From Phycicoccus sp. Soil802 (GTDB taxonomy: Bacteria; Actinomycetota; Actinomycetes; Actinomycetales; Dermatophilaceae), in contig NZ_LMSS01000004.1 in assembly GCF_001429605.1 (NCBI RefSeq), positions 124,001 to 188,000 of the forward strand: a DNA stretch of 64,000 nucleotides, given 5' to 3'. Of this stretch, positions 4,985 to 62,937 are shown piece by piece; positions within the stretch are counted from its first letter, which is position 1; every line of letters begins with the position of its first letter. The position numbers and the translations under genes are program-made. A model generated the notes under the pieces. That model made no database searches. It was not told where the DNA came from and was given only the letters and a program-made list of their open reading frames with translations.

Positions 4985-5062
4985 CGGGTGTCCGCGGCAC
5001 GGCGAACCCGCCGCACGGCGCGAACGGCCCGGCCGCGCGGCAGGGAACGGGCGTGCCCGGCA

Positions 5063-5068
5063 TACCCT
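5063..5068 (+). promoter_or_regulatory. -10 box of a leaderless transcript
   Basis: TACCCT ends six bases before the ATG at 5075, with no purine-rich ribosome site between. It overlaps a copy of the CGGCATACC word (5058-5066). Confidence 0.45.
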
Positions 5069-5074
5069 CGACGC

Positions 5075-5698
5075 ATGAGTGACCTGCAGTGTGCCGCCAC
5101 GCTCCTCGTCGCCCGCCACGGCGACGCGGAGTACGGACACCCCTCGGTGCTGTCCGACGAGGGAGGGTGGCTGTCGCCCAAGGGGATCGAGCAGACCACT
5201 GCCCTGGCCGAGTCCCTGGTCGGCCGAAGGGTGGCCGCGGTCCGCACCAGCCCGCTGGCGCGTGCCGTCCAGTCCGGCGCGGTCGCGGCCGAGGTCCTGG
5301 GCGTCGACTCGCGCGCGGTCGAGGGGCTCGAGGAGTTCTCGGTCGGTGCCCTGGCGGGCCGGCCGCACGACGACCCCGAGCTGCACTCGGTCTTCAAGGC
5401 CTGGCTGCACGGCGACACGAGGCGCTGCATCCCCGGCGGGGAGACGGGGGAGGAGGTCCTCACCCGCTACCGGGAGGCGCTGCTGTCGATCGCCGACCAG
5501 TTCCGCGGCGAGACCGTCCTGGTCTTCTCGCACGGTGGCGTCATGTCGTTCGCCCTGCCGCGGCTGTCCAGCCACCTCCGCGGGGACCTCGCCGCAGCCA
5601 AGTTCCTGCCCAACTGCGGGGTGGCCGAGGTGGCGGTCGACGGTGACGGCTTCGACGTCCGCACCTGGCCGGGCTCGACCGACCGCGCGGTCGTCTGA
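5075..5698 (+). CDS. Histidine phosphatase family protein
   Basis: Phosphoglycerate-mutase-like phosphatase, 207 residues. The catalytic RHG motif (LLVARHGDAEYG) is near residue 15, and the second catalytic His is in FSHGGVMSFAL near residue 155. The start is the ATG six bases after a TACCCT box, giving the family N-terminus; longer upstream frames lack homology. It has its own likely promoter and stands apart from the sugar operon. The family includes phosphoglycerate mutases, alpha-ribazole phosphatases and broad phosphatases, so the substrate is unknown. Confidence 0.85.
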   Translation: MSDLQCAATLLVARHGDAEYGHPSVLSDEGGWLSPKGIEQTTALAESLVGRRVAAVRTSPLARAVQSGAVAAEVLGVDSRAVEGLEEFSVGALAGRPHDDPELHSVFKAWLHGDTRRCIPGGETGEEVLTRYREALLSIADQFRGETVLVFSHGGVMSFALPRLSSHLRGDLAAAKFLPNCGVAEVAVDGDGFDVRTWPGSTDRAVV

Positions 5699-5742
5699 CC
5701 CCGGCGCCACCTGCACAGGGTGTGCCAGCGCCGCCCCGACGA

Positions 5743-6438
5743 CTAGAACAGCCGGTGCTCGCTGTTGTCGATGCCCTTGAGCGCGTCGTAGTCCAGCGTC
5801 ACGCAACGGATGCCCCGGTCGGTCGCCAGCGTGCGCGCCTGCGGCTTGATCTCCTGCGCCGCGAAGACCCCGGTCACCGGTGACAGGTGCGGGTCGCGGT
5901 TCATCAGCTCGAGGTAGCGGGTGAGCTGCTCGACGCCGTCGATGTCACCCCGCCGCTTGATCTCCACGGCCACCGAGGCCCCGGCGGCATCACGGCACAG
6001 GATGTCGACCGGTCCGATGGCGGTCATGTACTCGCGACGCACCAGGCTCCAGCCGTCGCCGAGGGTGTGGATGTGCTCGGCCAGGAGCTTCTGGAGGTGG
6101 GCCTCGACCCCGTCCTTGACCAGCCCGGGGTCGACCCCGAGCTCGTGCGACGAGTCGTGCAGCACCTCGTGGATGAGCACCCGGAGCCGGTCCTCCGACT
6201 TGGCGTGCTGCACCAGCCAGACGGCCGTGACGCCGTCCGCGGTCTCGTGCTCCTCGGGGGACACCTCGGCCATCGCGCACGGAGGAGACATCCAGTTGAG
6301 CGGCTTGTACGAACCACCATCGCTGTGGACCAGCACCGACCCGTCCGCCTTGACGAGGAGCAACCTCGTCGCCAGGGGGAGGTGGGCCGTCAGCCGGCCC
6401 TCGTAGTCCACCGAACACTTCGCTATGACCAGCCGCAC
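5743..6438 (-). CDS. nucS: Endonuclease NucS (EndoMS), mismatch-specific
   Basis: Nuclease that cuts both strands at mismatched bases; in actinobacteria lacking MutS/MutL it carries the non-canonical mismatch-repair pathway, with the beta clamp as partner. The protein is 231 residues, the usual length. It begins [20 protein letters not shown] (N-terminal DNA-binding domain). The RecB-like nuclease triad is visible: Asp145 in PVDILCRD, then Glu159 and Lys161 in AVEIKRRG, with a QLTRY motif near 171. It is transcribed on the minus strand, convergent with the histidine phosphatase. Confidence 0.96.
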
Positions 6439-6518
6439 GAGGGGTCACTCTACGGGCAGCCAACCGTTGCGTCGTGCGGGGTCGGTGGCGCACACTCGGA
6501 GCACAGAGGTGAGCTGGT

Positions 6519-6923
6519 ATGCCGAACGTCCTGGGCAACGTCGCCGGTCTCGTCCTCGTGATGGGCACCCTCGTGAGCGGGGTGCGTTGGCTCACGACGG
6601 GCCAGCCACCCCGGCTCGTGCAGCCAGCCGTCACGAGGTACCAGGCACGGCGCGACCTGCGGCGCCCTGTGCCCGAACCCATCCCGCCCATCCTGCTGGC
6701 GATGGAGCTGAGCCGGCTGGCCGCGCACATCCGCCGTGTCGAGGCGGGCGACCAGCCCCGCAAGGCGGAGCGGCTGATGGCGGCCAGGCTCGCCTACGAC
6801 CACGCGCTGCGGGACTACTGCCGGGCCGTCGGCATCCCGGTGCCTGTGGCGATCCGCGGCCTGTCCCGCGAGCAGCGGTTCCACATGGAGTCCGCCCTGA
6901 TCGGCGCCGGCCACGACTGGTGA
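6519..6923 (+). CDS. Conserved hypothetical protein with one N-terminal membrane helix
   Basis: 134 residues, function not recognised. Residues about 5-24 (LGNVAGLVLVMGTLVSGVRW) form one likely membrane helix; the rest is soluble, basic and probably helical, with the central stretch LAMELSRLAAHIRRVEAGDQ. The ATG lies inside a GGTATGCCG word. It is divergent from nucS, about 80 bp away, so the promoters share that gap. Coding character is good (GC-rich third positions, no competing frame). It resembles small actinobacterial proteins beside nucS, but that is recollection, not proof. Confidence 0.65.
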   Translation: MPNVLGNVAGLVLVMGTLVSGVRWLTTGQPPRLVQPAVTRYQARRDLRRPVPEPIPPILLAMELSRLAAHIRRVEAGDQPRKAERLMAARLAYDHALRDYCRAVGIPVPVAIRGLSREQRFHMESALIGAGHDW

Positions 6924-6938
6924 CCCGGCTTCCCGCAG

Positions 6939-6986
6939 GTCTTTGATGGGTTGGCCACACCAGGGTGTGGTCAACCCATCAAAGAC
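6939..6986. terminator. Near-perfect hairpin, GTCTTTGA family, copy 1
   Basis: Arms of 23 bases (GTCTTTGATGGGTTGG... against ...CAACCCATCAAAGAC) pair with one mismatch around a two-base loop. It lies between the hypothetical gene and the dehydrogenase at 7066. A degenerate copy is at 22493-22540. It could terminate transcription or be a dispersed repeat. Confidence 0.6.
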
Positions 6987-7065
6987 TCGGGCTTCGGGGC
7001 CGGGGTGGTGACCGTCACGCTGCCCAGGGGTCCACGCGGCATACCCGCTCTGCCAGACTCGCCGC

Positions 7066-8895: not shown

Positions 8896-9195
8896 ATGCC
8901 CCGCGCCAACCGGCGTCGCCGTGACGACGCCCCGCTGAACCTCGACCGAGCGGTCGGGGGCACCGCGCGGCGGGAGCTGTATGCCGGTGCCGAGTGGTTC
9001 GTGCGCCGCGTCACCGGCAGTGGGGCGAGCCGGGCGTACCTGTGCCCGGGTTGCCAGCAGAACATCCCGATCGGCACGCCCCACGTGGTCGCCTGGCCGG
9101 CCGAGGGCATGGGCGGTCTCGACGACCGACGGCACTGGCACACGCCCTGCTGGGAGGCCCGCGACCGCCGCCACACCCGCGGCGCCACCCGCTGA
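8896..9195 (+). CDS. Small zinc-ribbon-like conserved protein
   Basis: 99 residues. A basic N-terminus (MPRANRRRRDD) is followed by a conserved core EWFVRRVTGS, then YLCPGCQQNI, then HVVAWPAEG and HWHTPCWEARDRR. Two CPGC cysteines plus His/Cys of HWHTPC could bind one zinc ion. Similar small proteins in actinobacteria are often labelled ATP/GTP-binding protein without evidence; I see no nucleotide motif. GAGACT six bases before ATG suggests a leaderless transcript separate from the dehydrogenase. Function unknown; a nucleic-acid role is only a guess from the basic tail and zinc-ribbon pattern. Confidence 0.75.
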   Translation: MPRANRRRRDDAPLNLDRAVGGTARRELYAGAEWFVRRVTGSGASRAYLCPGCQQNIPIGTPHVVAWPAEGMGGLDDRRHWHTPCWEARDRRHTRGATR

Positions 9196-10304: not shown

Positions 10305-11663
10305 TCAGTGGCGGCGCTGGCGGGGCAGCAGGACCTCTTCGTAGAGGAGCAGCAGGCCGGCGGCGACCGGGATCGCCAGCAGCGCGCCGAGCACGCCGAG
10401 CAGCGTGCCGCCGGCGAGGGCGGCGACAACCGTCACCGCGCCAGGCACCGAGACCGTGCGCTGCATGATCCTCGGTGCCACGACGTAGTTCTCGAGCTGC
10501 TGGTAGACGACGTAGTAGATGAGGGCGATGACCGCCTTCTTGGGCTCGTCGAAGATCGCCACCAGGCACACGACGGCCGCGCCGGCGGTCGCACCCACCA
10601 TGGGGATCAGGCCGAGGAAGCCGACCGCGACGGCCAGCACCGCGGCATACGGGATGCCGACGATCATCATCATGATCCACGAGCAGATGGCGTTGATCGT
10701 CGCGACGGCGACCTGGCCGATGGCGTAGGAGCCGGTGCGTCGCATGATCTCCTCGGACAGCGAGATCACCCGCGGACGACGCGAGGCGGGGACGATCGCG
10801 TAGGCGCCCTGCTTCACGCGGGGGAACGACGCGAGCAGGAACAGCGTGAGGACCAGCACCGTGAAGGCCTGGAAGATCCCGCCGATGACGGCCGCGCCGA
10901 CGCCGAGCACGCCGCCGAAGACCTGGCTGAGGAAGTTGCCGTCGGTGATCCGCTTGTTGAACTCGGCCTGGATCTTGTCAACCACGCCGTAGTGCTGGTC
11001 GAGGTCCTTGACGAAGCGGCTCTGGAGGATCTGGTCGAGGTAGTCGGGCGCCTTCTGGGCGAGGTCGGTGCCCTGCGAGATGACCGGCGGCACCACGACG
11101 AGCCCGAGGAGCGTGAACACCGCCACCACCCCGGCGAAGACCAGGGCGACCGCACCTGCGCGGTTGAGCCCGTGGCGGGTGAGGAACTCGACGAGCGGGT
11201 TGAGCGTGAGGGCCAGGAAGAACGCGATGACGACGAGGGTCAGGACGGTGGTCAGCCGGCCGAGCGTGTGCCAAAGGAGCACGGCCGTGAGCACGCCGAT
11301 CGCGCCGACGAAGCCCATGTAGAACGGCGACTGGCGGTTGAGGGGGCGCCCGGCGCGCCCGTAGCGACGGCCGTCGTCATCGGGCGAGCGCTCGGCGTCG
11401 TCCTCGCGCTCGCGGACTCCCACGCCCAGGTCGGCGTGGCTCGATGGGGACGTCGTGCCGTCGGTGGGCACCCCGTCGGGCTGGTCGCCGGGCTCGCTGG
11501 CCGCGCCGGTCGCTCCCGCTGGCTGACGGCGCGAGGGCAGGATGTCGGCGAGCAGCTCACCCCACTCGCCGGACTGCTCGGAGCGGTCGTGGGGGTGGTT
11601 GCTGGCCCGCAACGCGTCCCGCTGGGCGCGCCGGAACTCTCTCCACCGGTCGAGCACTGACAT
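10305..11663 (-). CDS. AI-2E family transporter
   Basis: Polytopic membrane protein of the PF01594 family, 452 residues. After a charged N-terminal region (about 1-100, low complexity) come helices starting FYMGFVGAIGVLTAVLLWHT, paired helices around 165-200, a soluble mid-domain (about 215-285) and further helices. Near residue 350 is the family motif GIPYAAVLAVAVGFLGLIPM. Named after AI-2 export in E. coli, but many members are Na+/H+ antiporters or of unknown substrate. It has no linked quorum-sensing gene here. The roughly 100-residue hydrophilic N-terminus is longer than in E. coli homologs. Confidence 0.88.
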   Translation of the reverse strand: MSVLDRWREFRRAQRDALRASNHPHDRSEQSGEWGELLADILPSRRQPAGATGAASEPGDQPDGVPTDGTTSPSSHADLGVGVREREDDAERSPDDDGRRYGRAGRPLNRQSPFYMGFVGAIGVLTAVLLWHTLGRLTTVLTLVVIAFFLALTLNPLVEFLTRHGLNRAGAVALVFAGVVAVFTLLGLVVVPPVISQGTDLAQKAPDYLDQILQSRFVKDLDQHYGVVDKIQAEFNKRITDGNFLSQVFGGVLGVGAAVIGGIFQAFTVLVLTLFLLASFPRVKQGAYAIVPASRRPRVISLSEEIMRRTGSYAIGQVAVATINAICSWIMMMIVGIPYAAVLAVAVGFLGLIPMVGATAGAAVVCLVAIFDEPKKAVIALIYYVVYQQLENYVVAPRIMQRTVSVPGAVTVVAALAGGTLLGVLGALLAIPVAAGLLLLYEEVLLPRQRRH

Positions 11664-11711: not shown

Positions 11712-13052
11712 TCAGGCGTTGCGGAAGCGGTTGATCTGCGGGAGCAGGGCCGCGCGCTTCTCGGTGTCCGTGACCCCGAGGCCAGCCTCGGGCGACAGGG
11801 TGAGGACGCCGACCTTGCCCTGGTGGGCGTTGCGGTGGACGTCGAGGGCCGCCTGGCCGACCTCGTCCATGCCGTAGGTCTTCGACAGCGTCGGCTGGAT
11901 GAGCCCGCGGTTGATCAGCTCGTTGGCCTCCCACGCCTCGCGGTAGTTGGCGAAGTGGCTCGAGATGATCCGCTTGAGGTTCATCCACAGGTAGCGGTTG
12001 TCGTACTCGTGCATGTATCCGGAGGTCGACGCACAGGTGACGATCGTGCCGCCCTTGCGTGCGACGTAGACGCTCGCACCGAAGGTCTCCCGGCCGGGGT
12101 GCTCGAAGACGATGTCGACGTCGTGGCCGCCGGTCAGCTCGCGGATCTTCTTGCCCAGCCGCTGCCACTCCCGCGGGTCCTGCTGGGTGTTGTCGTCGTT
12201 CCAGAACCGGTAGCCCTCGGCGTTGCGGTCGATGATGAGCTCGGCACCCATCTCGCGGCAGATCTGGGCCTTCTCGGGCGACGACACGACGCAGATGGGG
12301 GTCGCCCCGCCGGCCAGGGCCATCTGGGTGGCGTAGGACCCCAGGCCGCCGGAGGCGCCCCAGATGAGCACGCGGTCGCCGAGCTTCATCGCCGCGCCGT
12401 TCTTGGAGATCAGCTGGCGGTAGGCCGTGGAGTTCACGAGCCCGGGGGAGGCCGCCTCCTCCCACGACAGGTGGGCGGGCTTGGGCATCAGCTGGTTCGA
12501 CTTCACGATGGCGAGCTCGGCGAGGCCGCCGAAGTTGGTCTCGAAGCCCCAGATGCGCTGCTGCGGGTCGAGCATCGTGTCGTTGTGGCCGTCGGCGTCC
12601 TCGAGCTCGACGGACAGGCAGTGCGCCACGACCTCCTGGCCGGGCGTCCACTTGGTCACCCCGGGGCCGGTGCGCAGGACGACGCCGGCCAGGTCGGAGC
12701 CGACCACGTGGTAGGGCAGGTCGTGCCGCTTGGCGAACTCGGAGGTGCGGCCGTAGCGCTCGAGGAAGCCGAAGGTCGACACCGGCTCGAAGATCGAGGT
12801 CCACACGGTGTTGTAGTTGATGGCGCTGGCCATGACGGCCACCAAGGCCTCACCCGGCGCGAGCTCGGGCACCGGCACGTCGTCGAGGTGCAGCGACTTG
12901 CGGGGGTCCTTGTCCTTGCTGGCCAGGCCCTCGAACATCTCGACCTCGTCCTTGTGCACCGTCACGGCGCGGTAGGACTCGGGGATGGACAGCCCGGCAT
13001 ACGTCTCCTGGGTGCGGTCCCCAGAGAGGATGGCGTCGCGGATTTCCTGCAT
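11712..13052 (-). CDS. ccrA: Crotonyl-CoA carboxylase/reductase
   Basis: NADPH-dependent reductive carboxylase of crotonyl-CoA to ethylmalonyl-CoA (or reductase to butyryl-CoA without CO2); 446 residues, the usual length. It is an MDR-fold enzyme with N-terminus MQEIRDAILSGD, core INYNTVWTSIFEPVSTF, the GFETNFGG loop with the conserved Phe-Glu used in CO2 binding, the nucleotide site LIWGASGGLGSYATQ, and HFANYREAWEAN near the C-terminus. The epimerase gene lies upstream on the same strand, 178 bp away. Role: ethylmalonyl-CoA pathway for C2 assimilation or supply of extender units and branched precursors. Confidence 0.95.
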   Translation of the reverse strand: MQEIRDAILSGDRTQETYAGLSIPESYRAVTVHKDEVEMFEGLASKDKDPRKSLHLDDVPVPELAPGEALVAVMASAINYNTVWTSIFEPVSTFGFLERYGRTSEFAKRHDLPYHVVGSDLAGVVLRTGPGVTKWTPGQEVVAHCLSVELEDADGHNDTMLDPQQRIWGFETNFGGLAELAIVKSNQLMPKPAHLSWEEAASPGLVNSTAYRQLISKNGAAMKLGDRVLIWGASGGLGSYATQMALAGGATPICVVSSPEKAQICREMGAELIIDRNAEGYRFWNDDNTQQDPREWQRLGKKIRELTGGHDVDIVFEHPGRETFGASVYVARKGGTIVTCASTSGYMHEYDNRYLWMNLKRIISSHFANYREAWEANELINRGLIQPTLSKTYGMDEVGQAALDVHRNAHQGKVGVLTLSPEAGLGVTDTEKRAALLPQINRFRNA

Positions 13053-13230
13053 CGGTGTGGCTCCTCGGCGTCGTCGGCACGTGCAGCCGAAACTACTGCT
13101 GGGTAAGGCGATCCGGGGCCCGGTGAGACTCCGGTCACGCGGTGACCTACCTCACCCGCCGCCTGCCTCGGCGGGCTCACGGACCGGGTATGCCGCGTGG
13201 CCAGTCCCAGCCTTGGGTCCCCGCTGGCGG

Positions 13231-14250: not shown

Positions 14251-15768
14251 GTGAACACCGACCCCACCCGCCTCAGCGCCGCTGAGCTGGCTCATGCCAT
14301 CGCCTCGAAGGAGCTCAGCTCCGTCGAGGTCGTCCAGGCCCACCTCGACCGGATCGCCGCGGTCGACGCCGACGTGCACGCGTTCCTCCACGTGGACGGC
14401 GCAGGCGCGCTCGACGCGGCCCGGGCCGTCGACGAGCGCCGGGCGTCCGGCGAGGACCTGCACGTCCTCGCCGGCGTCCCGATCGCCGTCAAGGACGTCA
14501 TGGCGACGAAGGGCCTGCCGACGACGTGCGGCTCCAAGATCCTCGAGGGCTGGATCCCGCCCTACGACGCCACGCTCGTGTCGCGGCTCAAGGCAGCCGG
14601 CATGCCGATCCTCGGCAAGACCAACATGGACGAGTTCGCGATGGGGTCCTCGACCGAGCACTCGGCCTACGGACCCACCCACAACCCCTGGGACCTCACC
14701 CGGATCCCCGGCGGGTCGGGAGGTGGCTCCTCGGCCGTGGTCGCGGCATACGAGGCACCGCTGGCGATCGGCACCGACACCGGTGGGTCGATCCGCCAGC
14801 CGGCCTCGGTGACGGGCACCGTCGGCGTGAAGCCGACCTACGGTGGTGTCTCGCGCTACGGCCTCGTGGCCCTGGCCTCGAGCCTCGACCAGGCCGGTCC
14901 GTGCACGCGGACCGTGCTCGACGCCGCGCTGCTGCACTCGGTCATCGGTGGCCACGACCCGATGGACTCCACCTCGATCAACGCCCCGGTGCCCTCGGTC
15001 GTCGAGGCCGCACGGCGGGCCGACGTCAAGGGGCTCAAGGTCGGCGTCATCAAGGAGCTCGGGGGAGAGGGCTACCAGGCCGGCGTGCGCGCCCGGTTCG
15101 ACGAGTCGGTCACCCTGCTCCAGGAGGCCGGGGCCGAGGTCGTCGAGGTGTCCTGCCCGAGCTTCGACTACGCGCTGGCCGCCTACTACCTGATCCTGCC
15201 GAGTGAGGCGTCCTCGAACCTCGCGAAGTTCGACGCCATGCGCTACGGCCTGCGGGTGCTGCCCGAGGGGATTGAGGACCCGAGCGCGGAGCAGGTCATG
15301 GCGGCCACGCGTGACGCCGGCTTCGGCGACGAGGTCAAACGCCGCATCATCCTCGGCACCTACGCCCTGTCGAGCGGCTACTACGACGCCTACTACGGTC
15401 AGGCCCAGAAGGTGCGCCGGCTCATCGCCAACGACTTCTCCACCGCCTTCGAGCAGGTCGACGTGCTGGTGAGCCCGACGGCCCCGACCACCGCGTTCAA
15501 GCTCGGCGACAAGCTGGACGACCCGATGTCGATGTACCTCCAGGACGTCGCCACCATCCCGGCCAACCTCGCGGGCGTGCCCGGCATGTCGCTGCCCAGC
15601 GGTCTGGCCGACGAGGACGGGCTGCCCACCGGCATCCAGATCCTCGCCCCAGCGACCCAGGACGAGCGTCTCTACAACGTGGGTGCCGCGCTCGAGAAGA
15701 TGCTCGTCGACCGATGGGGTGGGCCGTTGCTGGCCAAGGCGCCCCAGCTGACCGCGAAGGGAGCGTGA
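14251..15768 (+). CDS. gatA: Asp/Glu-tRNA amidotransferase subunit A
   Basis: Glutaminase/amidase subunit, 505 residues, amidase-signature fold. It releases ammonia from glutamine and channels it to GatB. The Ser-cisSer-Lys triad is visible: Lys82 in IAVKDVM, cis-Ser in the GGSGGGSS run near 155-161 and the nucleophile Ser near 183 in [13 protein letters not shown] chose the GTG at 14251 ([17 protein letters not shown]), preceded by AAGGA; a further upstream frame is not conserved. It lies 64 bp after gatC and 2 bp before gatB. Confidence 0.97.
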
Positions 15769-18054: not shown

Positions 18055-19239
18055 CTAGAAGTCGTCGAGCGACAACGCGACGACCCGGTCGTCGTCTGCG
18101 GCAGGGGTGCCGCGGAAGGTGTTGCTCGTCAGCACCCACAGCCGACCGTCGGGCGCGGCAACCGCATCACGCAGCCGGCCGTACCTGCCCTCGAGCAGCC
18201 GGTCGGGCCTGCCGACCCCGTTGGTGGTCAACGGGACCCGCCAGAGCGACTCGCCCCTCAGTGCGGCCATCCAGACGGCGCCCTCGGTCACGGCGATCCC
18301 GCTCGGTGAGGCGTCGGAGGTCGCCCACTGGACGAGGGGGTCGGTGAAACCCGAGCGTCCGGCCCTGCCCTCGACGACCGGCCAGCCGTAGTTGCGGCCG
18401 GGCTGGATGAGGTTGAGCTCGTCCCACGTGTTCTGGCCGAACTCGCTGGCGAACATCCGCCCGTCGGGTGCCCACGCGATGCCCTGGACGTTGCGGTGCC
18501 CGTAGCTCCAGACCGGGGAGGCGCCGAACGGGTTGCCGGGAGCGGGCTTGCCGTCCTTGGTGATCCTGAGGATCTTGCCGCCGAGGGCCTCCTTGTCCTG
18601 CGACCGGTCCGACTTCCCTGCGTCACCGGTCGTGACGTAGAGGTAGCCGTCGGGGCCGAAGGCGAGTCGCCCGCCGTTGTGGTGGCCGGCCTTGGGTATG
18701 CCGCGCAGCACCACAGTGGGCCGGGTCGCCGCGCCGTCCGCGAAGGTCAGCCGCACAACGCGGTTGTCCTCGGCCGCCGTGAAGTAGACGAAGATGCTCT
18801 GGTCGGTGGCGAAGTCGGGGGAGACCGCGACGCCGAGCAACCCGCCCTCGCCGTCCGGGGTGACCCCGGGGACCTCGCCCAGGACCCTCGGCGCCTGACC
18901 GGCCCGGACCTGCAGGAGCCGCCCCTCGTCGCGCAACGTGACGAGGGCCGACCCGTCGGGCAGGAACGCCAGGCCCCACGGGACGTCGAGGTCCTTGGCG
19001 ATGGTCGCGGTGGCGGCAGCGCTCGTCGGACTCCTGGTCGTCGACGGGCTCGTGGTCGTCGAGGCGCTCGAGGTCGCGGAGGTGCTGATCCGGGGAGCCG
19101 AGACCGTTCCCGTCGGGCCGGGGTCGTCGCCCGAGCAGCCGCTGACGAGCAGCACACCGACGACCACGGAGGCGGTTGCGGCCCCTGCGGAGGTGCGCCC
19201 TGGACCCTTGCGCCTCGGATGGACTGGTGCACGCGGCAT
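18055..19239 (-). CDS. PQQ-dependent sugar dehydrogenase-like lipoprotein
   Basis: Six-bladed beta-propeller of the soluble glucose/aldose dehydrogenase family, 394 residues, exported and lipid-anchored. The N-terminus is basic, followed by a hydrophobic stretch and lipobox VSGC near residue 35, then a Thr/Ser-rich linker (to about 80). The domain starts IAKDLDVPWGLAFLPDGSAL, with GEGGLLGVAVSPDF, HHNGGRLAFGPDGYLYV and GHRNVQGIAWAPDG matching the quinone/calcium scaffold. It probably oxidises a sugar outside the membrane; the PQQ ligands are not verified. The start codon lies in the word CACGCGGCATACC. No PQQ synthesis gene is in the window. Confidence 0.87.
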   Translation of the reverse strand: MPRAPVHPRRKGPGRTSAGAATASVVVGVLLVSGCSGDDPGPTGTVSAPRISTSATSSASTTTSPSTTRSPTSAAATATIAKDLDVPWGLAFLPDGSALVTLRDEGRLLQVRAGQAPRVLGEVPGVTPDGEGGLLGVAVSPDFATDQSIFVYFTAAEDNRVVRLTFADGAATRPTVVLRGIPKAGHHNGGRLAFGPDGYLYVTTGDAGKSDRSQDKEALGGKILRITKDGKPAPGNPFGASPVWSYGHRNVQGIAWAPDGRMFASEFGQNTWDELNLIQPGRNYGWPVVEGRAGRSGFTDPLVQWATSDASPSGIAVTEGAVWMAALRGESLWRVPLTTNGVGRPDRLLEGRYGRLRDAVAAPDGRLWVLTSNTFRGTPAADDDRVVALSLDDF

Positions 19240-19288
19240 ACCCCATTGTGCGGGATGGGCACCCTGCGAACGCCGATGGAGACGGGGC

Positions 19289-20230: not shown

Positions 20231-21040
20231 TCAGGCGGACGGGGTCTGGTCAGGCGCCATCCCGATGCGGTCGACGACCAGGGCAGGCACGTGGGCGGCC
20301 TGGTCCGCATCGTCGGGGTCAGCACGGTCGGGGAAGTCGAAGACCGCGACCATCGACTGCATCGGGTAGTCGGGCACGACGTCGGCGGTCCGGATCACCA
20401 GGCCGTCGACCGCGAAGCTCGCGCCGTCCGGCGCCCAGTCGACGCTGTAGGTGTGGAACTCGCTGACGTCGATCGGCACACGCGGAGCGTCGAAGTCGTC
20501 GACCAGCCGAGGGTCGCGGAACGGGTGCACCCCCATCCCCACCGCGGCGCCCTCTGCGGTGATCGCGTCGCCGAAGACCTCCACGACGCAGAGCTCCCCA
20601 CACCGGTCCGGCTGGTCCTCGAGGCCGACCAGCCACCAGGCGGCCATCGACCGCGACGTGAGGTCCATCCGCGCCCGCAGCTCCAGGCGGCCGAAGCGGG
20701 GCGTCCAGCCCCACATCGTCGGCTGGGCCTCGCGCACCAGGGCGCCCTCGCGCACCGGCTGCTGGCCGATGGTGCTCCCGACCGGGCCGGCGAAGACGCC
20801 GGACTGCACTCCGGACACGCGCAGCGGTCCGTGGTCGTCGGGGCACCACAGGCCGTGCTCGGGGGGGATGGTGAGGTGCAGGCACGAGTCGCGCACGGCA
20901 TACGTGGCCGCGCTGGCGGCCCGGGAGCTCCACTGGGGGAGGTAGGACGGGACCCACACCGAGAGGTCGAGGTCGGGGTCCGCGAAGTCGTCGACGAAGC
21001 CCTGGTGGCCGGGGTCGTCCTGGGCGCGGTCGGCGGTCAT
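20231..21040 (-). CDS. Glycoside hydrolase family 16-like protein, atypical active site
   Basis: 269 residues, no signal peptide, so apparently cytosolic. The beta-jelly-roll pattern of GH16/laminarinase is visible: FGRLELRARM, AAWWLVGLEDQ, the active-site strand GELCVVEVFGD near residue 155, and FHTYSVDWAPDGASFAVDGL near 210. The classical motif is E-x-D-x-x-E; here the Asp is Cys (E-L-C-V-V-E), while both Glu are kept. Activity is therefore uncertain. The gene is convergent with the dehydrogenase (2 bp gap) and divergent from the BNR protein at 21093. It could be a retaining glucanase-like enzyme or a carbohydrate-binding relative. Confidence 0.72.
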   Translation of the reverse strand: MTADRAQDDPGHQGFVDDFADPDLDLSVWVPSYLPQWSSRAASAATYAVRDSCLHLTIPPEHGLWCPDDHGPLRVSGVQSGVFAGPVGSTIGQQPVREGALVREAQPTMWGWTPRFGRLELRARMDLTSRSMAAWWLVGLEDQPDRCGELCVVEVFGDAITAEGAAVGMGVHPFRDPRLVDDFDAPRVPIDVSEFHTYSVDWAPDGASFAVDGLVIRTADVVPDYPMQSMVAVFDFPDRADPDDADQAAHVPALVVDRIGMAPDQTPSA

Positions 21041-23667: not shown

Positions 23668-23816
23668 CGGTCATTCCTCACTGCGCAGCGAGGTATGCCG
23701 TGGCCGCTCGTCGCTGCCCCGGGTCACCTCGTCGTGTGGCACGAGGCTAGCGGCCGGGGCTGGCTGCCGGACCTGCAGGGCTGGCCGTCTGGGGCCATCA
23801 GGGCCATGCTCGGGGT

Positions 23817-24341: not shown

Positions 24342-24421
24342 CCACGCGGCATACCAGGGTGGCGTCCTTGCGGCGCCGGTCGGCCAGTGAGACCCGCGTC
24401 CCACCCTGTGGACCCGAGTTC

Positions 24422-29985: not shown

Positions 29986-30001
29986 CGACCACAGCAGGTA
30001 T

Positions 30002-30033
30002 GCCGGCCGGTCCCGTTCGCGGGGCCGGCCGGC
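30002..30033 (+). terminator. Terminator hairpin after ilvC
   Basis: GCCGGCCGGTCCCG, TTCG loop, CGGGGCCGGCCGGC: 14 pairs (one G-T) with a stable UUCG-type loop, then a modestly T-rich tail. It starts inside a GGTATGCCG word. Confidence 0.75.
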
Positions 30034-45926: not shown

Positions 45927-47507
45927 ATGAGCGACCTGCACGTCTACGACACCACCCTGCGCGATGGCGCGCAGCAGGAGGGGCTCAACCTCTCCGTGTC
46001 GGACAAGCTCGCCATCGCCATGCACCTCGACGAGCTCGGGGTCGGCTTCATCGAGGGTGGTTGGCCGGGCGCGAACCCGAAGGACACCGAGTTCTTCGCC
46101 CGCGCCCAGACCGAGCTGCGGCTGCGCAATGCGACGCTCGCAGCGTTCGGCGCGACCAGGCGGGCCGGTGGCCAGGCGGCCACCGACCCCCTGGTGCGCG
46201 CCCTGCTCGACAGCCAGGCGCCGGTGGTGACTCTGGTGGCGAAGTCCCATGTGCGCCATGTGGAGTCGGCCCTGCGCACCACCCTCGAGGAGAACCTCGC
46301 CATGGTGCGCGACACCGTGTCGTTCCTCGCGGGGGAGGGGCGACGGGTCTTCCTCGACGCCGAGCACTTCTTCGACGGGTATGCCGCGAACCGCGACTAC
46401 GCGCTCGAGGTCGTGCGGGCGGCGATGGAGTCCGGTGCCGAGGTCGTCGCCCTCTGCGACACCAACGGCGGCATGCTGCCCGACCAGATCGCGGACGTGG
46501 TGGCCGATGCGGTCGGCGCGACCTCGGCGCGGGTCGGCATCCACTGCCACAACGACACCGGCTGCGCGGTGGCCAACTCCATGGCGGCCGTCGACGCCGG
46601 GGCGACGCACGTGCAGGGCACCATCAACGGCTACGGCGAGCGCACGGGCAACGCCGACCTCCTCACAGTCGTCAGCAACCTGCAGATCAAGCGGGGGCTG
46701 CCGCTGCTCGAGACCGACCGGCTGCGCGAGGCGACCCGGATCGCCCACTCGATCAGCGAGATCACCAACGTCCCGCCCTACTCCCGGCAGCCCTACGTCG
46801 GGGCCAGCGCGTTCGCCCACAAGGCCGGTCTCCACGCGAGCGCGATCAAGGTCGACCCCGACCTCTACCAGCACACCGACCCCCAGCACGTGGGCAACGA
46901 CATGCGGATGCTGGTGTCCGACATGGCTGGACGCGCCAGCATCGAGCTCAAGGGCCGGGAGCTGGGCTACGACCTGTCCGACGACAACGACCTGCTGATC
47001 CGTGTCCTGGCCCGAGTCAAGGAGCTCGAGCTGCGGGGCTACACCTTCGACGCGGCCGACGCCTCCTTCGAGCTGCTGCTGCGCCGTGAGGTCGAGGGCG
47101 GCGGCTACGACTTCTTCGAGGTCGAGTCCTGGCGGGTCATCACCGACGCGCGTGGCGACGAGGACGCGCTGTCCGAGGCGACCGTCAAGGTCCTCGCGGG
47201 CGGCGAGCGGGTCGTGGCGACCGGTGAGGGCAACGGACCCGTCAACGCCCTCGACCACGCGCTTCGCCGTGCGCTGGCGCCCGCCTACCCCGAGCTCGAC
47301 AAGCTCGAGCTGATCGACTTCCGGGTGCGCATCCTCGATGCCGCCCACGGCACCGACGCGGTCACCCGGGTGCTCATCGAGACCTCCGACGGCTCGACGT
47401 CGTGGGAGACCATCGGCGTGGCCGGCAACATCATCGAGGCCTCGTGGCAGGCCCTGGTCGACGGCGTCACGTACGGCCTGGTGCGCGCCGGGGTGCCCGT
47501 CCGCTAG
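45927..47507 (+). CDS. cimA: Citramalate synthase
   Basis: Condenses acetyl-CoA and pyruvate to (R)-citramalate, the threonine-independent entry to isoleucine; 526 residues. I chose ATG 45927 (MSDLHVYDTTLRDGAQQEGL), 7 bases after GAGGA. DTTLRDG metal loop near 8-14, VGFIEGGWPGANPKD near 38, LCDTNGGMLPDQIADV near 175, metal-ligand HCHNDTGCAVAN near 205, GTINGYGERTGNADL near 230, and a C-terminal LeuA-type regulatory domain (about 380-526). The long form and GGWPGANPKD match citramalate synthase rather than isopropylmalate synthase. Product passes to LeuCD and LeuB. Confidence 0.94.
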   Translation: MSDLHVYDTTLRDGAQQEGLNLSVSDKLAIAMHLDELGVGFIEGGWPGANPKDTEFFARAQTELRLRNATLAAFGATRRAGGQAATDPLVRALLDSQAPVVTLVAKSHVRHVESALRTTLEENLAMVRDTVSFLAGEGRRVFLDAEHFFDGYAANRDYALEVVRAAMESGAEVVALCDTNGGMLPDQIADVVADAVGATSARVGIHCHNDTGCAVANSMAAVDAGATHVQGTINGYGERTGNADLLTVVSNLQIKRGLPLLETDRLREATRIAHSISEITNVPPYSRQPYVGASAFAHKAGLHASAIKVDPDLYQHTDPQHVGNDMRMLVSDMAGRASIELKGRELGYDLSDDNDLLIRVLARVKELELRGYTFDAADASFELLLRREVEGGGYDFFEVESWRVITDARGDEDALSEATVKVLAGGERVVATGEGNGPVNALDHALRRALAPAYPELDKLELIDFRVRILDAAHGTDAVTRVLIETSDGSTSWETIGVAGNIIEASWQALVDGVTYGLVRAGVPVR

Positions 47508-47644: not shown

Positions 47645-49954
47645 GTGGATGAACCAGGAGTAGCCGGGCTCGAGGGCATCGAGGACGAGATCTTCGGTCG
47701 ACAGGTCCTCGCCGCGATGAAGGTGGCGCCACGCGCGAACCTGGCCAACGCCACGAACATCATCGTCGTGACCCTCTACATCGCCCTGCCCGGTCACCCC
47801 GTCTTTGCCCTGGTGTGGGTGGGCCTGGCGCTGCCCGCGGCTGCTCTGCGTGCGGTGGTCTGGTGGCTCGGTGAGCGAGCCTCCCCGCCCAGGCCGACCG
47901 CCGTCCTGAGGCGCCGGTACCACCGCATCTCGATGCTCGAGGTCACGCTCCAGGCCTCCCTCAACGCGATCCTGGCCGCCTACCTGCTCCCGCGGATCGA
48001 CCCGGATCGACAGCTGGTCCTGGTGGCGTCCATCGCGGGGATCCTGGGGGCCGGGGCGGTGGCGCTCTCGACGGTCAGGTCGGTCGGCACGCTGTGGGTG
48101 GTCCTCCACGTGTCCACCATTGCCCCCACCTTCCTGGCGATGGACCGGACCGCCTACGACGTGCTGACGGTCCAGATGTTCGTCTACGGCGCGGTGCTGG
48201 TCGCCGGGGTGGTCTACCTGGCCGACTCGTTCCGGCGACGGACGCTGGCCGAGATCAATGCCAGACGGGAGCACCAGGTCGTCGAGCTCCTCCTCGACGA
48301 CTTCGAGGACGGCTCACGCGACTGGCTGTGGGAGACCGACTCCCAAGGCGCCCTCACCCACGCGTCGGAACGGCTCGCCGAAGTGTCCGGCTACTCGGTG
48401 GAGTCGCTTCGTCGGCTGACGATGGTGGAGCTGCTGGGGCGACTCGCCCACCCGTCCGACGACGGGCGTCGATCCGTCGAGCTGCTCACCGACGCGATGG
48501 CGCGTGGGGTGGGCGTCCGTGACCACTTGCTCCACGTCCAGGTCGGCGGATCGGAGCACTGGTGGGCCATCTCGGCCAAGCCGAGGAAGGCGGCGGACGG
48601 GAGGGTCCTCGGCTGGCGAGGGGTGGGGGCCGACACCACCCAGGCCCACATCCACGGCCTCGAGATGGTGCGGCTCGCTGAGACCGACCCGTTGACGGCG
48701 CTGGCCAACCGCCGCCGGTTCCAGGAGAGCCTCGACTCCGTCCTCGACGGCGAACCGAGCGCCGGCGAGGTCCACCTCGCCATCTTCGACCTGGACAACT
48801 TCAAGGTCGTCAACGACACCCTGGGGCATTCGGTGGGCGATGAGCTGCTGGTCCAGGTCGCCCTGCGGATGGCCGCCTGCAGGGAGGACGACTTCATCGC
48901 TCGCCTGGGTGGGGACGAGTTCGCGGTCGTGACGCAGCCGGCGTCGCCGCCGGACTTCGCCGAGCTGCTGTTCGCGCCCTACCAGGACGTGTTCACCGAG
49001 CCCTTCATCGTGCGGGGCAACCGGCTTCACGTGACCACGAGCGTCGGCTGCGCCCGCGCCTGGCCGGGCACCACGCGGTCCGAGGAGCTGGTCGGCAGGG
49101 CTGACCTCGCCTTGTATGCCGCGAAGGCCGCCGGGCCAAGCCGGATGAGCTCCTACACCTCGTCGATGACGATGCAGGCCCGGGAGCGGGCGTCCCTGGT
49201 CGCCGATCTGCAGCGGGCCATCACGCGAGAGGAGTTCCTCCTCTACTACCAGTCGCAGCACGACCTGCGCACCGGCAAGGTCGTGGCGACCGAGGCGCTG
49301 CTGCGGTGGCAGCACCCACGTCGCGGCCTGCTACCGCCGTCGGAGTTCCTGGAGGTGGCGGAGGCATCCGGTCTCCTCGTGCCCATCGGCGGGCTCATGC
49401 TCCGCCAGGCCTGCCGCAAGCTCGCCACCCTCGGAGGTGGGGTCCGGGTGGCCTTCAACGTGTCCCACTCAGAGCTCGACGCGAACGACTTCCTCGAGCG
49501 GCTCGAGCAGGCCCTGGACGAGTTCGGGGTCGACCCGCAACGGCTCGAGCTCGAGGTGACCGAGACCGCGGCCGGCACGCCGCGGTCGGAGTCGCTGCTC
49601 CGGGAGGTCGCGCAGCTCGGGGTCCGCATCGCGATCGACGACTTCGGCGTCGGCTACTCCTCGCTGGCTCGCCTCCAGCGCATGCCCGTCGACGTCATCA
49701 AGGTGGACCGCTCGTTCGCTGCGGCGCTCAGGGCATCGGAGCCACGGTCGACCGACGTCGCAAGGGCGATCATGAAGTCTGCGGTCGACATCGCCTCGGC
49801 CCTCGGGATCGAGGTCCTGGCGGAGGGGATCGAGACCGCCGGCCAGCTTGCCGAGGTGCGCGGCCTCGGCTTCGACCTGGCGCAGGGTTACTTCGTGGCA
49901 ACCCCTGCGCCCGACCTCAACCGCCACCTGAGGCTCGTGGAGCCGCTGTCCTGA
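47645..49954 (+). CDS. Membrane GGDEF/EAL cyclic-di-GMP enzyme with PAS domain
   Basis: 769 residues, GTG start preceded by GGAGG. N-terminal 1-205 holds about six membrane helices (sensor); a PAS-like domain lies at about 220-335 (WLWETDSQGALTHASERLAE); the GGDEF domain at about 345-500 has the intact active loop RLGGDEFAVV near 420; the EAL domain at about 515-765 has VATEALLRWQHP, the FNVSHSELDA Asn, LEVTETA, IDDFGVGYSSLARL and EVLAEGIET. Both catalytic motifs look intact, so it could make or degrade c-di-GMP. Single gene. Confidence 0.93.
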   Translation: MDEPGVAGLEGIEDEIFGRQVLAAMKVAPRANLANATNIIVVTLYIALPGHPVFALVWVGLALPAAALRAVVWWLGERASPPRPTAVLRRRYHRISMLEVTLQASLNAILAAYLLPRIDPDRQLVLVASIAGILGAGAVALSTVRSVGTLWVVLHVSTIAPTFLAMDRTAYDVLTVQMFVYGAVLVAGVVYLADSFRRRTLAEINARREHQVVELLLDDFEDGSRDWLWETDSQGALTHASERLAEVSGYSVESLRRLTMVELLGRLAHPSDDGRRSVELLTDAMARGVGVRDHLLHVQVGGSEHWWAISAKPRKAADGRVLGWRGVGADTTQAHIHGLEMVRLAETDPLTALANRRRFQESLDSVLDGEPSAGEVHLAIFDLDNFKVVNDTLGHSVGDELLVQVALRMAACREDDFIARLGGDEFAVVTQPASPPDFAELLFAPYQDVFTEPFIVRGNRLHVTTSVGCARAWPGTTRSEELVGRADLALYAAKAAGPSRMSSYTSSMTMQARERASLVADLQRAITREEFLLYYQSQHDLRTGKVVATEALLRWQHPRRGLLPPSEFLEVAEASGLLVPIGGLMLRQACRKLATLGGGVRVAFNVSHSELDANDFLERLEQALDEFGVDPQRLELEVTETAAGTPRSESLLREVAQLGVRIAIDDFGVGYSSLARLQRMPVDVIKVDRSFAAALRASEPRSTDVARAIMKSAVDIASALGIEVLAEGIETAGQLAEVRGLGFDLAQGYFVATPAPDLNRHLRLVEPLS

Positions 49955-50774: not shown

Positions 50775-52199
<1,425 letters not shown>

Positions 52200-53137: not shown

Positions 53138-54015
53138 CCACCGTCGACCGCGTCCAGGGCCTGCAGGAGTCGCTCCCGCAGGCCCTGTCCGCGCGTCGCG
53201 AAGTCGCGCTGCGCGGCGGCATACTCGGCCCGTCCCTGGGGGGTCTCGATGGCGACGGGCACGTAGCCGAGGGCGCCGAGGTCGTAGGGCGAGGCGCGCA
53301 TGTCGAGCTCGCGGATCTCGCGGGCGAGCTCGAAGCAGTCGAGCGCGAGGCTGCTCGGCACCGCCGGCGCCAGCTTCATGCACCACTTGTAGAGGTCCAT
53401 GCCGGCGTGCAGGCAGCCCGGCTGCTCGAGGGCGACCTGGTCCTCGCGGGTGGGTTGGAGGACGTTCAGGGACCGGGCCGGGGGAGTGTAGAAGCGGAAG
53501 GCGTCGAAGTGCGTGCACCGGATCTGCAGCCCGTCGACGACCTCGTCGGTGCCGGTGGGGCCGAGGCGCAGTGGCCAGGCCGAGTGTCGCACCTCGTCAG
53601 GCGACTGGCGGTAGACCATCGCCCACTCGTGCAGGCCGAAGCAGCCGAGCTGCGCCGGCCGCGAGTGGGTGGCTGTCACGAGCCGGCGCACGAACTCGAC
53701 CGTGGCACCACGCGCTTCCAGGTATGCCGCCGTGTCGAGCACACTGCCGCCGTCCAGGTCGCGGTAGAACCGCCACGACCCGCGGTCCAGCTGTGCGGCG
53801 CCGTCGAGGACCAGGTCGGGTCCCGGGTGCCAGCGGCGCAGCTGCGAGGGCTTGAACGGGTAGTAGGTGAAGAGGAAGTCCTCGACCGGGTGGGCCGTGC
53901 CGGTCTGGCGACGCTCGCGGTGGCCGGCCGTGAGGGCGTCGACCCGGTCGGCGTGGTCGGCCTCAAGGGCCTGCCACGCCGCCTGCTCGAGCACCCCGGC
54001 GACCATGGGCACCAA
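53074..54015 (-). CDS. Conserved hypothetical protein, often labelled 3-methyladenine DNA glycosylase
   Basis: 313 residues, cytosolic. Conserved stretches include HPVEDFLFTYYPFKPSQLRR, then WHPGPD near 42-67, FVRRLVTATHSRPAQLGCFG, LHEWAMVYR near 130, and AGMDLYKWCMKLAPAVPS near 205. It belongs to an actinobacterial family whose database name is 3-methyladenine DNA glycosylase; I see neither an HhH-GPD nor an AAG motif, so the name is doubtful. The His/Trp-rich conserved segments suggest an enzyme. The last 21 codons overlap the end of the PadR gene, so the C-terminus may be non-essential. Start ATG 54015 or 54006. Confidence 0.75.
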   Translation of the reverse strand: MVPMVAGVLEQAAWQALEADHADRVDALTAGHRERRQTGTAHPVEDFLFTYYPFKPSQLRRWHPGPDLVLDGAAQLDRGSWRFYRDLDGGSVLDTAAYLEARGATVEFVRRLVTATHSRPAQLGCFGLHEWAMVYRQSPDEVRHSAWPLRLGPTGTDEVVDGLQIRCTHFDAFRFYTPPARSLNVLQPTREDQVALEQPGCLHAGMDLYKWCMKLAPAVPSSLALDCFELAREIRELDMRASPYDLGALGYVPVAIETPQGRAEYAAAQRDFATRGQGLRERLLQALDAVDGGYSTGSVGLSAPASSSSARMR

Positions 54016-56122: not shown

Positions 56123-56178
56123 GGTATGCCGCCGGGGTCGTCGCGCTCAGCGCGGGGCGGCCGGCCACGCGGCATACC
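56123..56178. repeat. Facing pair of GGTATGCCG words between FAH and SARP genes
   Basis: GGTATGCCG (56123-56131) and, inverted, GGCCACGCGGCATACC (56163-56178), with a CGCTCAGCGCG-type hairpin between. Possible bidirectional terminator between convergent genes. Confidence 0.6.
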
Positions 56179-59929: not shown

Positions 59930-59961
59930 GGTATGCCGCGTGGCCGGCCGCGCGGCATACC
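59930..59961. repeat. Facing pair of GGTATGCCG words
   Basis: GGTATGCCGCGTGGCC (59930-59945) and, inverted, CGGCATACC (59953-59961). Part of the genome-wide word described in the findings. Confidence 0.65.
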
Positions 59962-59979
59962 CACCTCCGCCCTCGGCCG

Positions 59980-60261: not shown

Positions 60262-60270
60262 CGGGGCACC

Positions 60271-61862: not shown

Positions 61863-61892
61863 TTGGGAACGCGACCGAGGGGCCGGTAGTAT
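61863..61892 (+). promoter_or_regulatory. Promoter for tRNA-Gln
   Basis: TTGGGA (61863-61868), 18-base spacer, TAGTAT (61887-61892), about 56 bp before the tRNA. Confidence 0.4.
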
Positions 61893-61948
61893 CGCGTCTC
61901 GGTTCACTCCCATGAAGGCCTTCGGGCGCGCTGGAAGTGATACCCCCT

Positions 61949-62020
61949 TGGGGTATGGTGTAATTGGCAACACTACGGTTTCTGGTACCGTCATTCTAGG
62001 TTCGAGTCCTGGTACCCCAG
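61949..62020 (+). tRNA. tRNA-Gln (anticodon CTG)
   Basis: Cloverleaf of 72 bases: acceptor TGGGGTA/TACCCCA, D-arm around GTGTAATTGGCAACAC, anticodon stem ACGGT/ACCGT with loop TTCTGGT (CTG), T-arm CTAGG TTCGAGT CCTGG, discriminator G. No encoded CCA. A 12-pair hairpin (62092-62119) lies between this and tRNA-Glu. Confidence 0.95.
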
Positions 62021-62128
62021 CTCAGGCGCAAGCCCTTGTGGCACACGCCGATTCGGAGAAATCCACTTCCTGCCGGTATGGTTCTCTCCGCTGCCCGCGC
62101 ACTGCAGAGTGCACGGGCAACCAGCTAG

Positions 62129-62201
62129 GGCCCCGTTGTGTAGCGGCCTAGCACGCCGCCCTCTCAAGGCGGTAGCGCGGGTTCGAATCCCGTCGGGGCT
62201 A
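62129..62201 (+). tRNA. tRNA-Glu (anticodon CTC)
   Basis: Cloverleaf of 73 bases: acceptor GGCCCCG/CGGGGCT (first pair G-T), D-arm TTGTGTAGCGGCCTAGCA, anticodon stem CCGCC/GGCGG with loop CTCTCAA (CTC), T-arm GCGGG TTCGAAT CCCGT, discriminator A; CCA is encoded at 62202-62204. Confidence 0.96.
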
Positions 62202-62207
62202 CCAGTA

Positions 62208-62235
62208 GAAGCCTCCGTCCACGGACGGGGGCTTC
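62208..62235 (+). terminator. Terminator after the tRNA genes
   Basis: GAAGCCTCCGTCC and GGACGGGGGCTTC, 13 pairs (one G-T), tight two-base loop; also faces the convergent MerR gene. Confidence 0.75.
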
Positions 62236-62267
62236 TCCCATGTCCGGGTCCGGACGGGTGAGCCAGC

Positions 62268-62864
62268 CTAGGTGGCTCCGCTGCTGACGTGCTCCTGGGC
62301 GAGTCTGCGCAGTGCCGCCAGGACCGGGTCGACCAGGACAGTGCCGGCCACCACCCGGTGCAGGGCGGCGGCGAGGTCGTCGCGCGGCACCGCGGCCACG
62401 TCGACCGCGGCGATGCCCTCGGTGGCCCGCGCGTAGCCGGTCAGCGACTCCGGCTCGAGCGGCACGCCGGCGGACCTCGCCGCCGCGATCGCGCCGGTCA
62501 GCGAGCGCAGGGCTGGCGAGTCGGGTGACACCTGCCAGCCGAGCCCGGCCACCAGGTCGGTCACCTCGGCGCTGACGGCGACGTCGGGGTGGCTGGCGGG
62601 CAGCGCGTACTGCGCCTTGCCGAGGAGGTCGTGCCGGGAGGTCGGGGGAGAGTCGAGGGTCTCGACCACCCGCTTGCTCTGGGCGACGGAGACGCCCGCG
62701 TCGATCAGCGCGCGGACCAGCCGCACCCGCTGGAGGTGCATCTCGGAGTAGTCGGCCCGGGTGGCGCCGAGGCTCTCCCCGGCGGGGACGAGCCCCTCAC
62801 GCAGGTAGTACTTGAGGGTCGCCACCGTCGTGCCGCTGCGCTCCGACAGCTCCGACATCTTCAT
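62268..62864 (-). CDS. MerR-family transcriptional regulator
   Basis: 198 residues. Residues 1-70 form the MerR winged helix: MSELSERSGTTVATLKYYLR, EGLVPAGESLGATRADYSE and HLQRVRLVRALIDAGVSVAQ. The rest is helical with no metal cysteines, so it is a small-molecule or orphan type rather than a metal sensor. TAGTGT on the minus strand, eight bases before ATG 62864, fits a leaderless start. It has no linked target gene; convergent with the tRNA unit. Confidence 0.88.
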   Translation of the reverse strand: MKMSELSERSGTTVATLKYYLREGLVPAGESLGATRADYSEMHLQRVRLVRALIDAGVSVAQSKRVVETLDSPPTSRHDLLGKAQYALPASHPDVAVSAEVTDLVAGLGWQVSPDSPALRSLTGAIAAARSAGVPLEPESLTGYARATEGIAAVDVAAVPRDDLAAALHRVVAGTVLVDPVLAALRRLAQEHVSSGAT

Positions 62865-62894
62865 GGATAGTCACACTACCCACGGCCAGCAGGG

Positions 62895-62937
62895 CGAGGT
62901 ATGCCGCGTGGCCGGCTGGGCCACGCGGCATACCTCG
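62895..62937. terminator. Palindrome of two facing GGTATGCCGCGTGGCC words
   Basis: CGAGGTATGCCGCGTGGCC, five-base loop, and its full complement: 19 perfect pairs, after the IclR gene stop (minus strand). Confidence 0.75.

Follow-up and report, generated by a model that had tools for sequence, protein, structure and literature searches.

What keeps one octamer at high frequency in a bacterial chromosome, between genes as well as within them? The question is raised by a stretch of 64,000 nucleotides from Phycicoccus sp. Soil802 (contig NZ_LMSS01000004.1, positions 124,001 to 188,000), referred to here at its full length as the window, in which GTATGCCG is the most enriched of all 8-mers. The present analysis indicates that GTATGCCG is likely to be a DNA-uptake word, working in the manner of the DNA uptake sequence (DUS) of Neisseria and the uptake signal sequence (USS) of Haemophilus. 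Since word-dependent uptake and its receptor are deduced here from genome sequences and the pilus type of Neisseria was not found, GTATGCCG is described as working like a DUS or USS and not as a member of the Neisserial system. An earlier note on this DNA, made from its letters alone, had argued for selection on a DNA word and offered uptake words, chromosome-organising motifs or a methyltransferase or nucleoid-protein site as explanations; selection or drive on the word is supported, and of the three an uptake word fits best.

The own genome (4.29 Mb in nine contigs, 99.97% complete) carries 2,241 copies of GTATGCCG, 1,143 forward and 1,098 reverse, at a mean density of one per 1.9 kb. The reversed word, used as the control, occurs 51 times, which corresponds to a 44-fold enrichment, so that the genome-wide count lies far from expectation and the over-representation noticed in the window extends to the whole genome. 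The word is also exact. In a 140-kb sample of the own genome, made up of the window and the loci L005, L051, L052 and L100, 78 copies (39 per strand) were counted where 1.7 are expected, whereas the 24 variants with one mismatch total 76 against about 85 expected. A null in which synonymous codons are shuffled and intergenic DNA is kept gives a weaker contrast (78 against 29.3), because the intergenic copies are retained in it.

Recently inserted DNA lacks the word to a large extent. In 14 genomes of the family, the two halves of the pilus motor gene tadA of the tad-1 cluster share a contig, separated by about 4 to 79 kb, and the split points in the fetched cases fall near codons 82, 110, 141, 207 (the ATP-binding loop), 233 and 297. 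Ten of these genomes are word-rich and were used for the test (G099, G159, G163 and G004 were left out as not word-rich); their inserts, 255 kb together, contain 22 copies of GTATGCCG against 108.4 predicted from host density (P 6e-24), a depletion of about fivefold, and seven of the ten are depleted singly at P <0.05. The word therefore does not arise passively from local mutation or from codon use. A serine recombinase (PF00239 with PF07508) is present in at least five of the ten inserts, and a similar recombinase follows a shortened tadC in G184. The 70.6-kb insert of G139 (L200-L203) combines such a recombinase with dpdA, B, B, D, F, H and J of the Dpd 7-deazaguanine DNA modification system, and the 14-kb insert of G080 (L210) holds genes for type III modification and for a restriction-type helicase. 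Mobile elements that insert in competence genes, often with defence genes, have been described as a conflict over transformation (PMC11472951, available text). Prophages recognised by an HK97-type portal protein were also considered as a set of foreign DNA and abandoned, as none was found in 55 genomes with a word, indicating few classical prophages of that type.

Among the genomes counted, richness in the word is confined to one family. Genomes were regarded as word-rich from 340 copies upwards, provided that the count was also no less than 2.2 times that of the control, a threshold of our own choice; such genomes comprise 109 of the 186 genomes and 30 of the 53 genera of the family, probably GTDB Dermatophilaceae to judge from the names of the relatives, with 341 to 4,724 copies each, and all 11 genomes of the own genus (625 to 3,986 copies). 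None of 229 genomes in 19 other families of the order is word-rich or exceeds 177 copies, and the highest ratio to control among those with more than 100 copies is about 2.9. Genera of the same family among the relatives of the tad-1 TadA include Knoellia, Humibacillus, Ornithinimicrobium, Serinicoccus, Flexivirga, Arsenicicoccus and Janibacter, and the own genus falls beside Pedococcus, to whose TadA its own is 94% identical. Separately, 16 sampled copies in G041 (lineage g18; L037, L059, L104) have long flanks in common, and the g18 counts hence partly reflect a dispersed repeat family.

Conservation was examined in orthologues that were aligned by codon and drawn from the fetched loci, for the most part com and tad gene neighbourhoods, with other 8-mers containing three A/T as the control and without the rows of L127, L134 and L178, which are likely duplicates of G077, G039 and G136. 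Among GTATGCCG users the homologous site is intact in 45% of cases on average against 18.5% for the control 8-mers (131 sites). In genomes without GTATGCCG, a group that takes in the Janibacter genomes with a word of their own, it is intact in 2.3% against 11.7% (70 sites). Users of a second word, GGATGCCG, retain GTATGCCG at 0 of 68 homologous sites. The occurrence of GTACGCCG opposite GTATGCCG in the GTACGGCG group was discounted as evidence of a dialect because TAC is the default Tyr codon.

Relatives poor in GTATGCCG often have other words, namely GGATGCCG, one base from GTATGCCG; GTACGGCG, two bases away; GTATGNCG, with a free position; and the unrelated CCCCCTTCG, so that at least five words occur with GTATGCCG included. 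Whole-genome counts of GGATGCCG reach 4,480 in G034, 3,949 in G178 and 3,816 in G017, and G036 holds two words (2,195 GGATGCCG and 1,217 GTATGCCG); the remaining 76 genomes of that count range from 241 to 1,239. GTACGGCG is found 3,117 times in G084, a congener of the GTATGCCG users G085 and G086, and 1,031-1,550 times in G002, G003, G015, G088, G089 and G090, with 136-579 in the remaining 40 genomes. GTATGNCG is the word of Flexivirga and Metallococcus, where any of the four bases may occupy position six. The counts for CCCCCTTCG refer to sampled loci, not whole genomes (L017-L019, L110, L129, L130, L138, L160, L240-L245): Janibacter has 132 copies against 6.1 expected across 13 loci (247 kb), with 59 of the copies on the plus strand; they occur in five of six frames and between genes, and Marihabitans has 15 against 0.6 in one locus. 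Some one-mismatch variants of CCCCCTTCG exceed background. The samples of g46, g53, g12, g11, g5 and g16 yielded no clear word. Three further candidates, GGTCTACG in G008 (26 against 5.6), GGATGCCG in g46 (48 against 15.5) and CCGCATCGA in g32 (21 against 2.3), were too weak or unclear to be accepted as dialects.

Within the window, GTATGCCG occurs 40 times, 20 of them on either strand, against 0.79 expected from dinucleotide shuffles (maximum three in 100 shuffles), and its parts TATGCCG and GTATGCC lead the 7-mer ranking. The earlier count by eye of about 45 copies of TATGCC or its complement, nearly all as GTATGCCG, was right as to abundance (40 of 42 copies) and somewhat high in number, and its range, taken from 5058, misses two copies at 3267 and 3447. 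The copies are given below with gene boundaries predicted by a simple purpose-made caller; facing pairs carry no strand.

31853 to 31893: facing pair GTATGCCG...CGGCATAC with a stem-loop, between the ends of two convergent genes (RNA fold -46.4 kcal/mol, z -7.9)
35311 to 35345: facing pair, stem-loop, 17 bp past the end of a + strand gene (fold -39.9 kcal/mol, z -7.6)
56124 to 56177: facing pair, between the ends of two convergent genes (fold -39.7 kcal/mol, z -2.1)
59931 to 59960: facing pair, intergenic, upstream of both predicted neighbour genes (fold -29.5 kcal/mol, z -4.8)
62899 to 62933: facing pair, 33 bp past where the - strand gene 62967-63710 ends (fold -42.6 kcal/mol, z -9.5)
13187 to 13202, + strand: single intergenic copy, extended form GGTATGCCGCGTGGCC
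7037 to 7044, - strand: single intergenic copy, matching the extended form in its first 14 bases
24347 to 24354, - strand: single intergenic copy, matching the extended form in its first 14 bases
5058 to 5065, - strand: single intergenic copy
6517 to 6524, + strand: copy overlapping a predicted gene start
19234 to 19241, - strand: single intergenic copy
20896 to 20903, - strand: single intergenic copy, gene map uncertain here
23693 to 23700, + strand: single intergenic copy
29998 to 30005, + strand: single intergenic copy, 12 bp past a gene end
3267 to 3274, + strand: genic copy, Tyr-Ala
3447 to 3454, - strand: genic copy, Gly-Ile with rare ATA
8979 to 8986, + strand: genic copy, Tyr-Ala
10643 to 10650, - strand: genic copy, Tyr-Ala
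12995 to 13002, - strand: genic copy, Tyr-Ala
14744 to 14751, - strand: genic copy, Ala-Tyr
18696 to 18703, + strand: genic copy, Gly-Ile with rare ATA
22662 to 22669, - strand: genic copy, Tyr-Ala
27866 to 27873, + strand: genic copy, Tyr-Ala
33681 to 33688, - strand: genic copy, Ala-Tyr
37475 to 37482, + strand: genic copy, Tyr-Ala
38280 to 38287, - strand: genic copy, Ala-Tyr
39679 to 39686, + strand: genic copy, Tyr-Ala
40143 to 40150, - strand: genic copy, Ala-Tyr
41890 to 41897, + strand: genic copy, Tyr-Ala
45094 to 45101, + strand: genic copy, Tyr-Ala
46379 to 46386, + strand: genic copy, Tyr-Ala
49114 to 49121, + strand: genic copy, Tyr-Ala
50921 to 50928, - strand: genic copy, Tyr-Ala
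53217 to 53224, - strand: genic copy, Tyr-Ala
53722 to 53729, + strand: genic copy, Ala-Tyr

Nineteen of the 40 copies are intergenic or partly genic. The extended intergenic form proposed in the earlier note, the 16-mer GGTATGCCGCGTGGCC, is matched exactly at 13187+, 59930+, 62898+, 56163- and 62919-, and at two of the places named there, 7032 and 24342, the match is limited to the first 14 bases. Its claim that copies often form facing pairs is borne out by five close pairs (<70 bp), all intergenic and all facing, with starts 22-46 bp apart and predicted stems of -30 to -46 kcal/mol; four of them sit 6 to 33 bp past a predicted gene end, and the fifth is the pair upstream of both its neighbours. 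Such pairs probably serve second-hand as transcription terminators. The spacing of GTATGCCG in the window is more even than random (coefficient of variation 0.56, P 0.0006).

The 21 wholly genic copies encode Tyr-Ala (14), Ala-Tyr (5) and Gly-Ile with the rare ATA codon (2, at 3447 and 18696), as had been read from the letters, and TAT is indeed rare as a Tyr codon: the 731 Tyr codons of the 140-kb sample comprise 56 TAT and 675 TAC, with 33 of the 56 TAT inside GTATGCCG and 23 outside it. The statement that the word is kept in every reading frame was too strong, as three frames are in use in the window and five of six in 140 kb, where 33 of the 52 genic copies read G TAT GCC G, 11 read NCG GCA TAC and the other eight fall in three more frames. 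The argument from conservation across frames is accordingly weaker than stated, because the TAT GCC frame holds most of the genic copies.

Competence genes are a feature of the uptake-word kind, and the own genome has a set of com and Tad genes like that of Micrococcus luteus. It includes adjacent, open comEA and comEC (L005); a tad-2-like cluster of TadA, two TadB/C, an Flp-like protein and minor pilins, all open (L052); a separate Flp cluster (L051); and an open tad-1-like cluster of tadA, tadB, tadC, an flp-like gene and three minor pilins (L100). Transformation of M. luteus is reported to require tad-1, tad-2 and com genes (PMC4322843, available text). As a side observation, the tad-1 cluster of the own genus adjoins a gene for a 1,449-aa ATPase that is FtsK/EccC-like by eye (L100:6136-10485). 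PilT, the retraction ATPase family taken as the mark of the type IVa route, lies above the cut-off in one of 80 genomes (G086), which is not the own genome, with no search made for ComP itself; a ComP-type pilus is therefore unlikely.

The second tad-1 minor pilin (labelled TadE2), which by its start is the counterpart of M. luteus TadF (PMC6370729, available text), is among the fastest-changing tad-1 proteins and has a nearly invariant cysteine pair, which makes it a candidate receptor and no more. Its model is confident (pLDDT 89.8).

The steps envisaged for an uptake word are as follows. A Tad/Flp-type competence pilus would bind free DNA through a sequence-specific receptor, for which a tad-1 minor pilin is the most likely candidate; the DNA would then pass ComEA/ComEC and would recombine with the chromosome. 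As fragments with the word would be imported in preference to others, its copies, both new and repaired, would accumulate by biased uptake, and a change of receptor specificity would cause the genome to turn over to a new word.

Several observations weigh against this explanation. Three of the ten tadA inserts are not depleted beyond P 0.05 singly; the one-mismatch variant GTAGGCCG exceeds its expected number (17 against 7.4); and the distinct GGATGCCG-user positions facing a GTATGCCG site carry GGATGCCG in 4 of 39 cases. In the other word-rich genomes sampled, two of six intergenic close pairs face, against five of five in the window, and spacing is over-dispersed in four of ten other stretches. 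Faster divergence of the second minor pilin with change of dialect is only suggestive, and its model has no PDB match below E 0.001, so that the receptor stays a candidate. Several lineages in which no word was detected (g46, g53, g5, g11) also have tad-1, comEC and tad-2, and hence these genes do not predict the word. No tad-1 tadA fragment above 60% identity was found in four word-rich genomes, the complete G118 and the incomplete G101, G122 and G181.

Attempts to find a gene separating word users from non-users were unsuccessful. ComEC, found in 180 of the 186 family genomes, is useless for the purpose, and tad-1 TadA occurs in word-less lineages too. A first pass found the latter in 155 of 186 genomes at E 1e-120, a misleading count since at most nine candidates per genome were scored and split genes fall below the cut; a second pass over 38 genomes, from which the first-pass negatives G023, G024, G070, G071, G095, G097 and G098 were left out, showed that many of the missing ones are split genes. 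A Fisher test for tad-1 absence (4/118 against 14/68, p 4e-4) was set aside because it ignored relatedness and wrongly counted Janibacter as word-less.

The explanation that survives best beside an uptake word, although unlikely, is a non-polar site resembling HIP1 or organising the nucleoid or chromosome, bound by a chromosomal protein of structure, repair or replication with no role in uptake. A genome-wide, strand-symmetric and rigid 8-mer that is depleted in recent inserts agrees with it, as does the failure of competence genes to separate users from non-users. It is opposed by the presence of at least four further words in one family, one of them unrelated, by the stem-loop pairs of the window and by the lineages in whose samples no word was found (g46, g53, g12), as a core chromosomal function is not expected to vanish.

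The polar form of a chromosome-organising site is contradicted by the balance of strands. A Chi- or KOPS-like word for recombination or segregation would, like GTATGCCG, be an octamer over-represented in the chromosome. Polarity was assessed by the strand share of each stretch with at least eight copies, the origin being unmapped, and in none of 24 stretches do 75% or more of the copies lie on one strand, while the window is evenly divided; with the turnover of dialects and one-mismatch variants at background, this makes such a word very improbable. A target of methylation or restriction-modification, the methyltransferase site suggested earlier, must be regarded as more doubtful again. Some modification sites are non-palindromic words with adenine, as is GTATGCCG, but modification and restriction sites are normally neutral or avoided, and the 44-fold enrichment, the facing pairs, the intergenic preference and the dialects are left without a reason.

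There is scarcely any likelihood that GTATGCCG is a dispersed repeat of the REP (repetitive extragenic palindrome) or terminator type, as which the strong stem-loops, the longer repeat around the word in g18 and the higher intergenic density would let it pass: 1.69 copies per kb between genes against 0.42 within them in the 140-kb sample, about fourfold (binomial p 1.3e-7). Only 26 of the 78 copies there are intergenic or partly so and 52 are genic, and the flanks of 152 own-genus copies are biased only weakly (towards C followed by G just after the word, and towards G at the fifth base). An artefact of codon pairs or composition, with Tyr-Ala written as TAT GCC, can be dismissed in spite of the predominance of that frame, as the intergenic enrichment already refutes it, other frames are used, TAT is otherwise rare, the word-less relatives sampled write Tyr-Ala with TAC and the inserts are depleted.

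An uptake word is thus retained as the preferred explanation of GTATGCCG. The larger proposition, that uptake words arose independently in Gram-positive bacteria, that word-selective Tad transformation is family-wide with a Tad minor pilin as the receptor, that the word was switched several times, once (Janibacter, Marihabitans) to an unrelated sequence, and that mobile elements counter the system by repeated insertion into the pilus motor gene, is in our judgement evenly balanced between true and false. Nowhere is the choice of kin DNA by bacteria clearer than in uptake words. An uptake word in the Actinomycetota would be an apparently independent case with another pilus, and its five or more words could be compared across dozens of genera to address how words start, why they turn over and which property of a receptor is essential. 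The uptake explanation also predicts that Pedococcus, Knoellia, Ornithinimicrobium and Janibacter are naturally transformable, with a preference for DNA that carries their own word.

To our knowledge, uptake words come from the Gram-negative Neisseriaceae and Pasteurellaceae, with a type IV minor pilin as the shown or predicted receptor. A search of open-access titles and the starts of abstracts, outside which lie preprints and most subscription journals, gave no report of an uptake word in Actinomycetota among the matches listed. Within the limits of that search, a Gram-positive, Tad-linked uptake word with several dialects appears to be new, of a kind otherwise known from Gram-negative bacteria.

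Four known systems invite comparison. HIP1 of cyanobacteria is likewise a very abundant octamer, genic and intergenic; HIP1 is palindromic, whereas GTATGCCG is not its own complement, and we know of neither dialects nor facing terminator pairs of HIP1. The Tad/Flp transformation system of M. luteus has the same comEA-comEC, tad-2-like and tad-1-like clusters (PMC4322843 and PMC6370729, available text). It differs in that GTATGCCG is not rich in any of the 19 other families sampled, and the term 'uptake sequence' has no occurrence in the available text of PMC4322843 and PMC8467076. The USS of Pasteurellaceae is also an abundant short word, with two versions (Hin and Apl), and its predicted receptor is the type IV minor pilin ComN (PMC12616744, available text); the word, the host phylum and the pilus type are different here.

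With the DUS and ComP of Neisseriaceae the differences are the Gram-positive host, another word, the near absence of PilT and an uptake and receptor that are inferred. The hexamer ATGCCG is common to GTATGCCG and the 12-base Neisserial DUS (PMC3630211, available text), probably by coincidence. The likeness lies elsewhere and takes in most of what was measured: in both, a short non-palindromic word is present in thousands of copies, is rare in acquired DNA and has dialects (available text of PMC2397512 and PMC3630211). Genes acquired recently lack DUS, which elsewhere form terminators as inverted repeats (PMC2397512); the depleted inserts are the parallel here, and the facing pairs of the window, with their predicted stem-loops, may be another. 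DUS dialects occur in related genera, with two in one genome in S. muelleri (PMC3630211), as in G036 of the present family.

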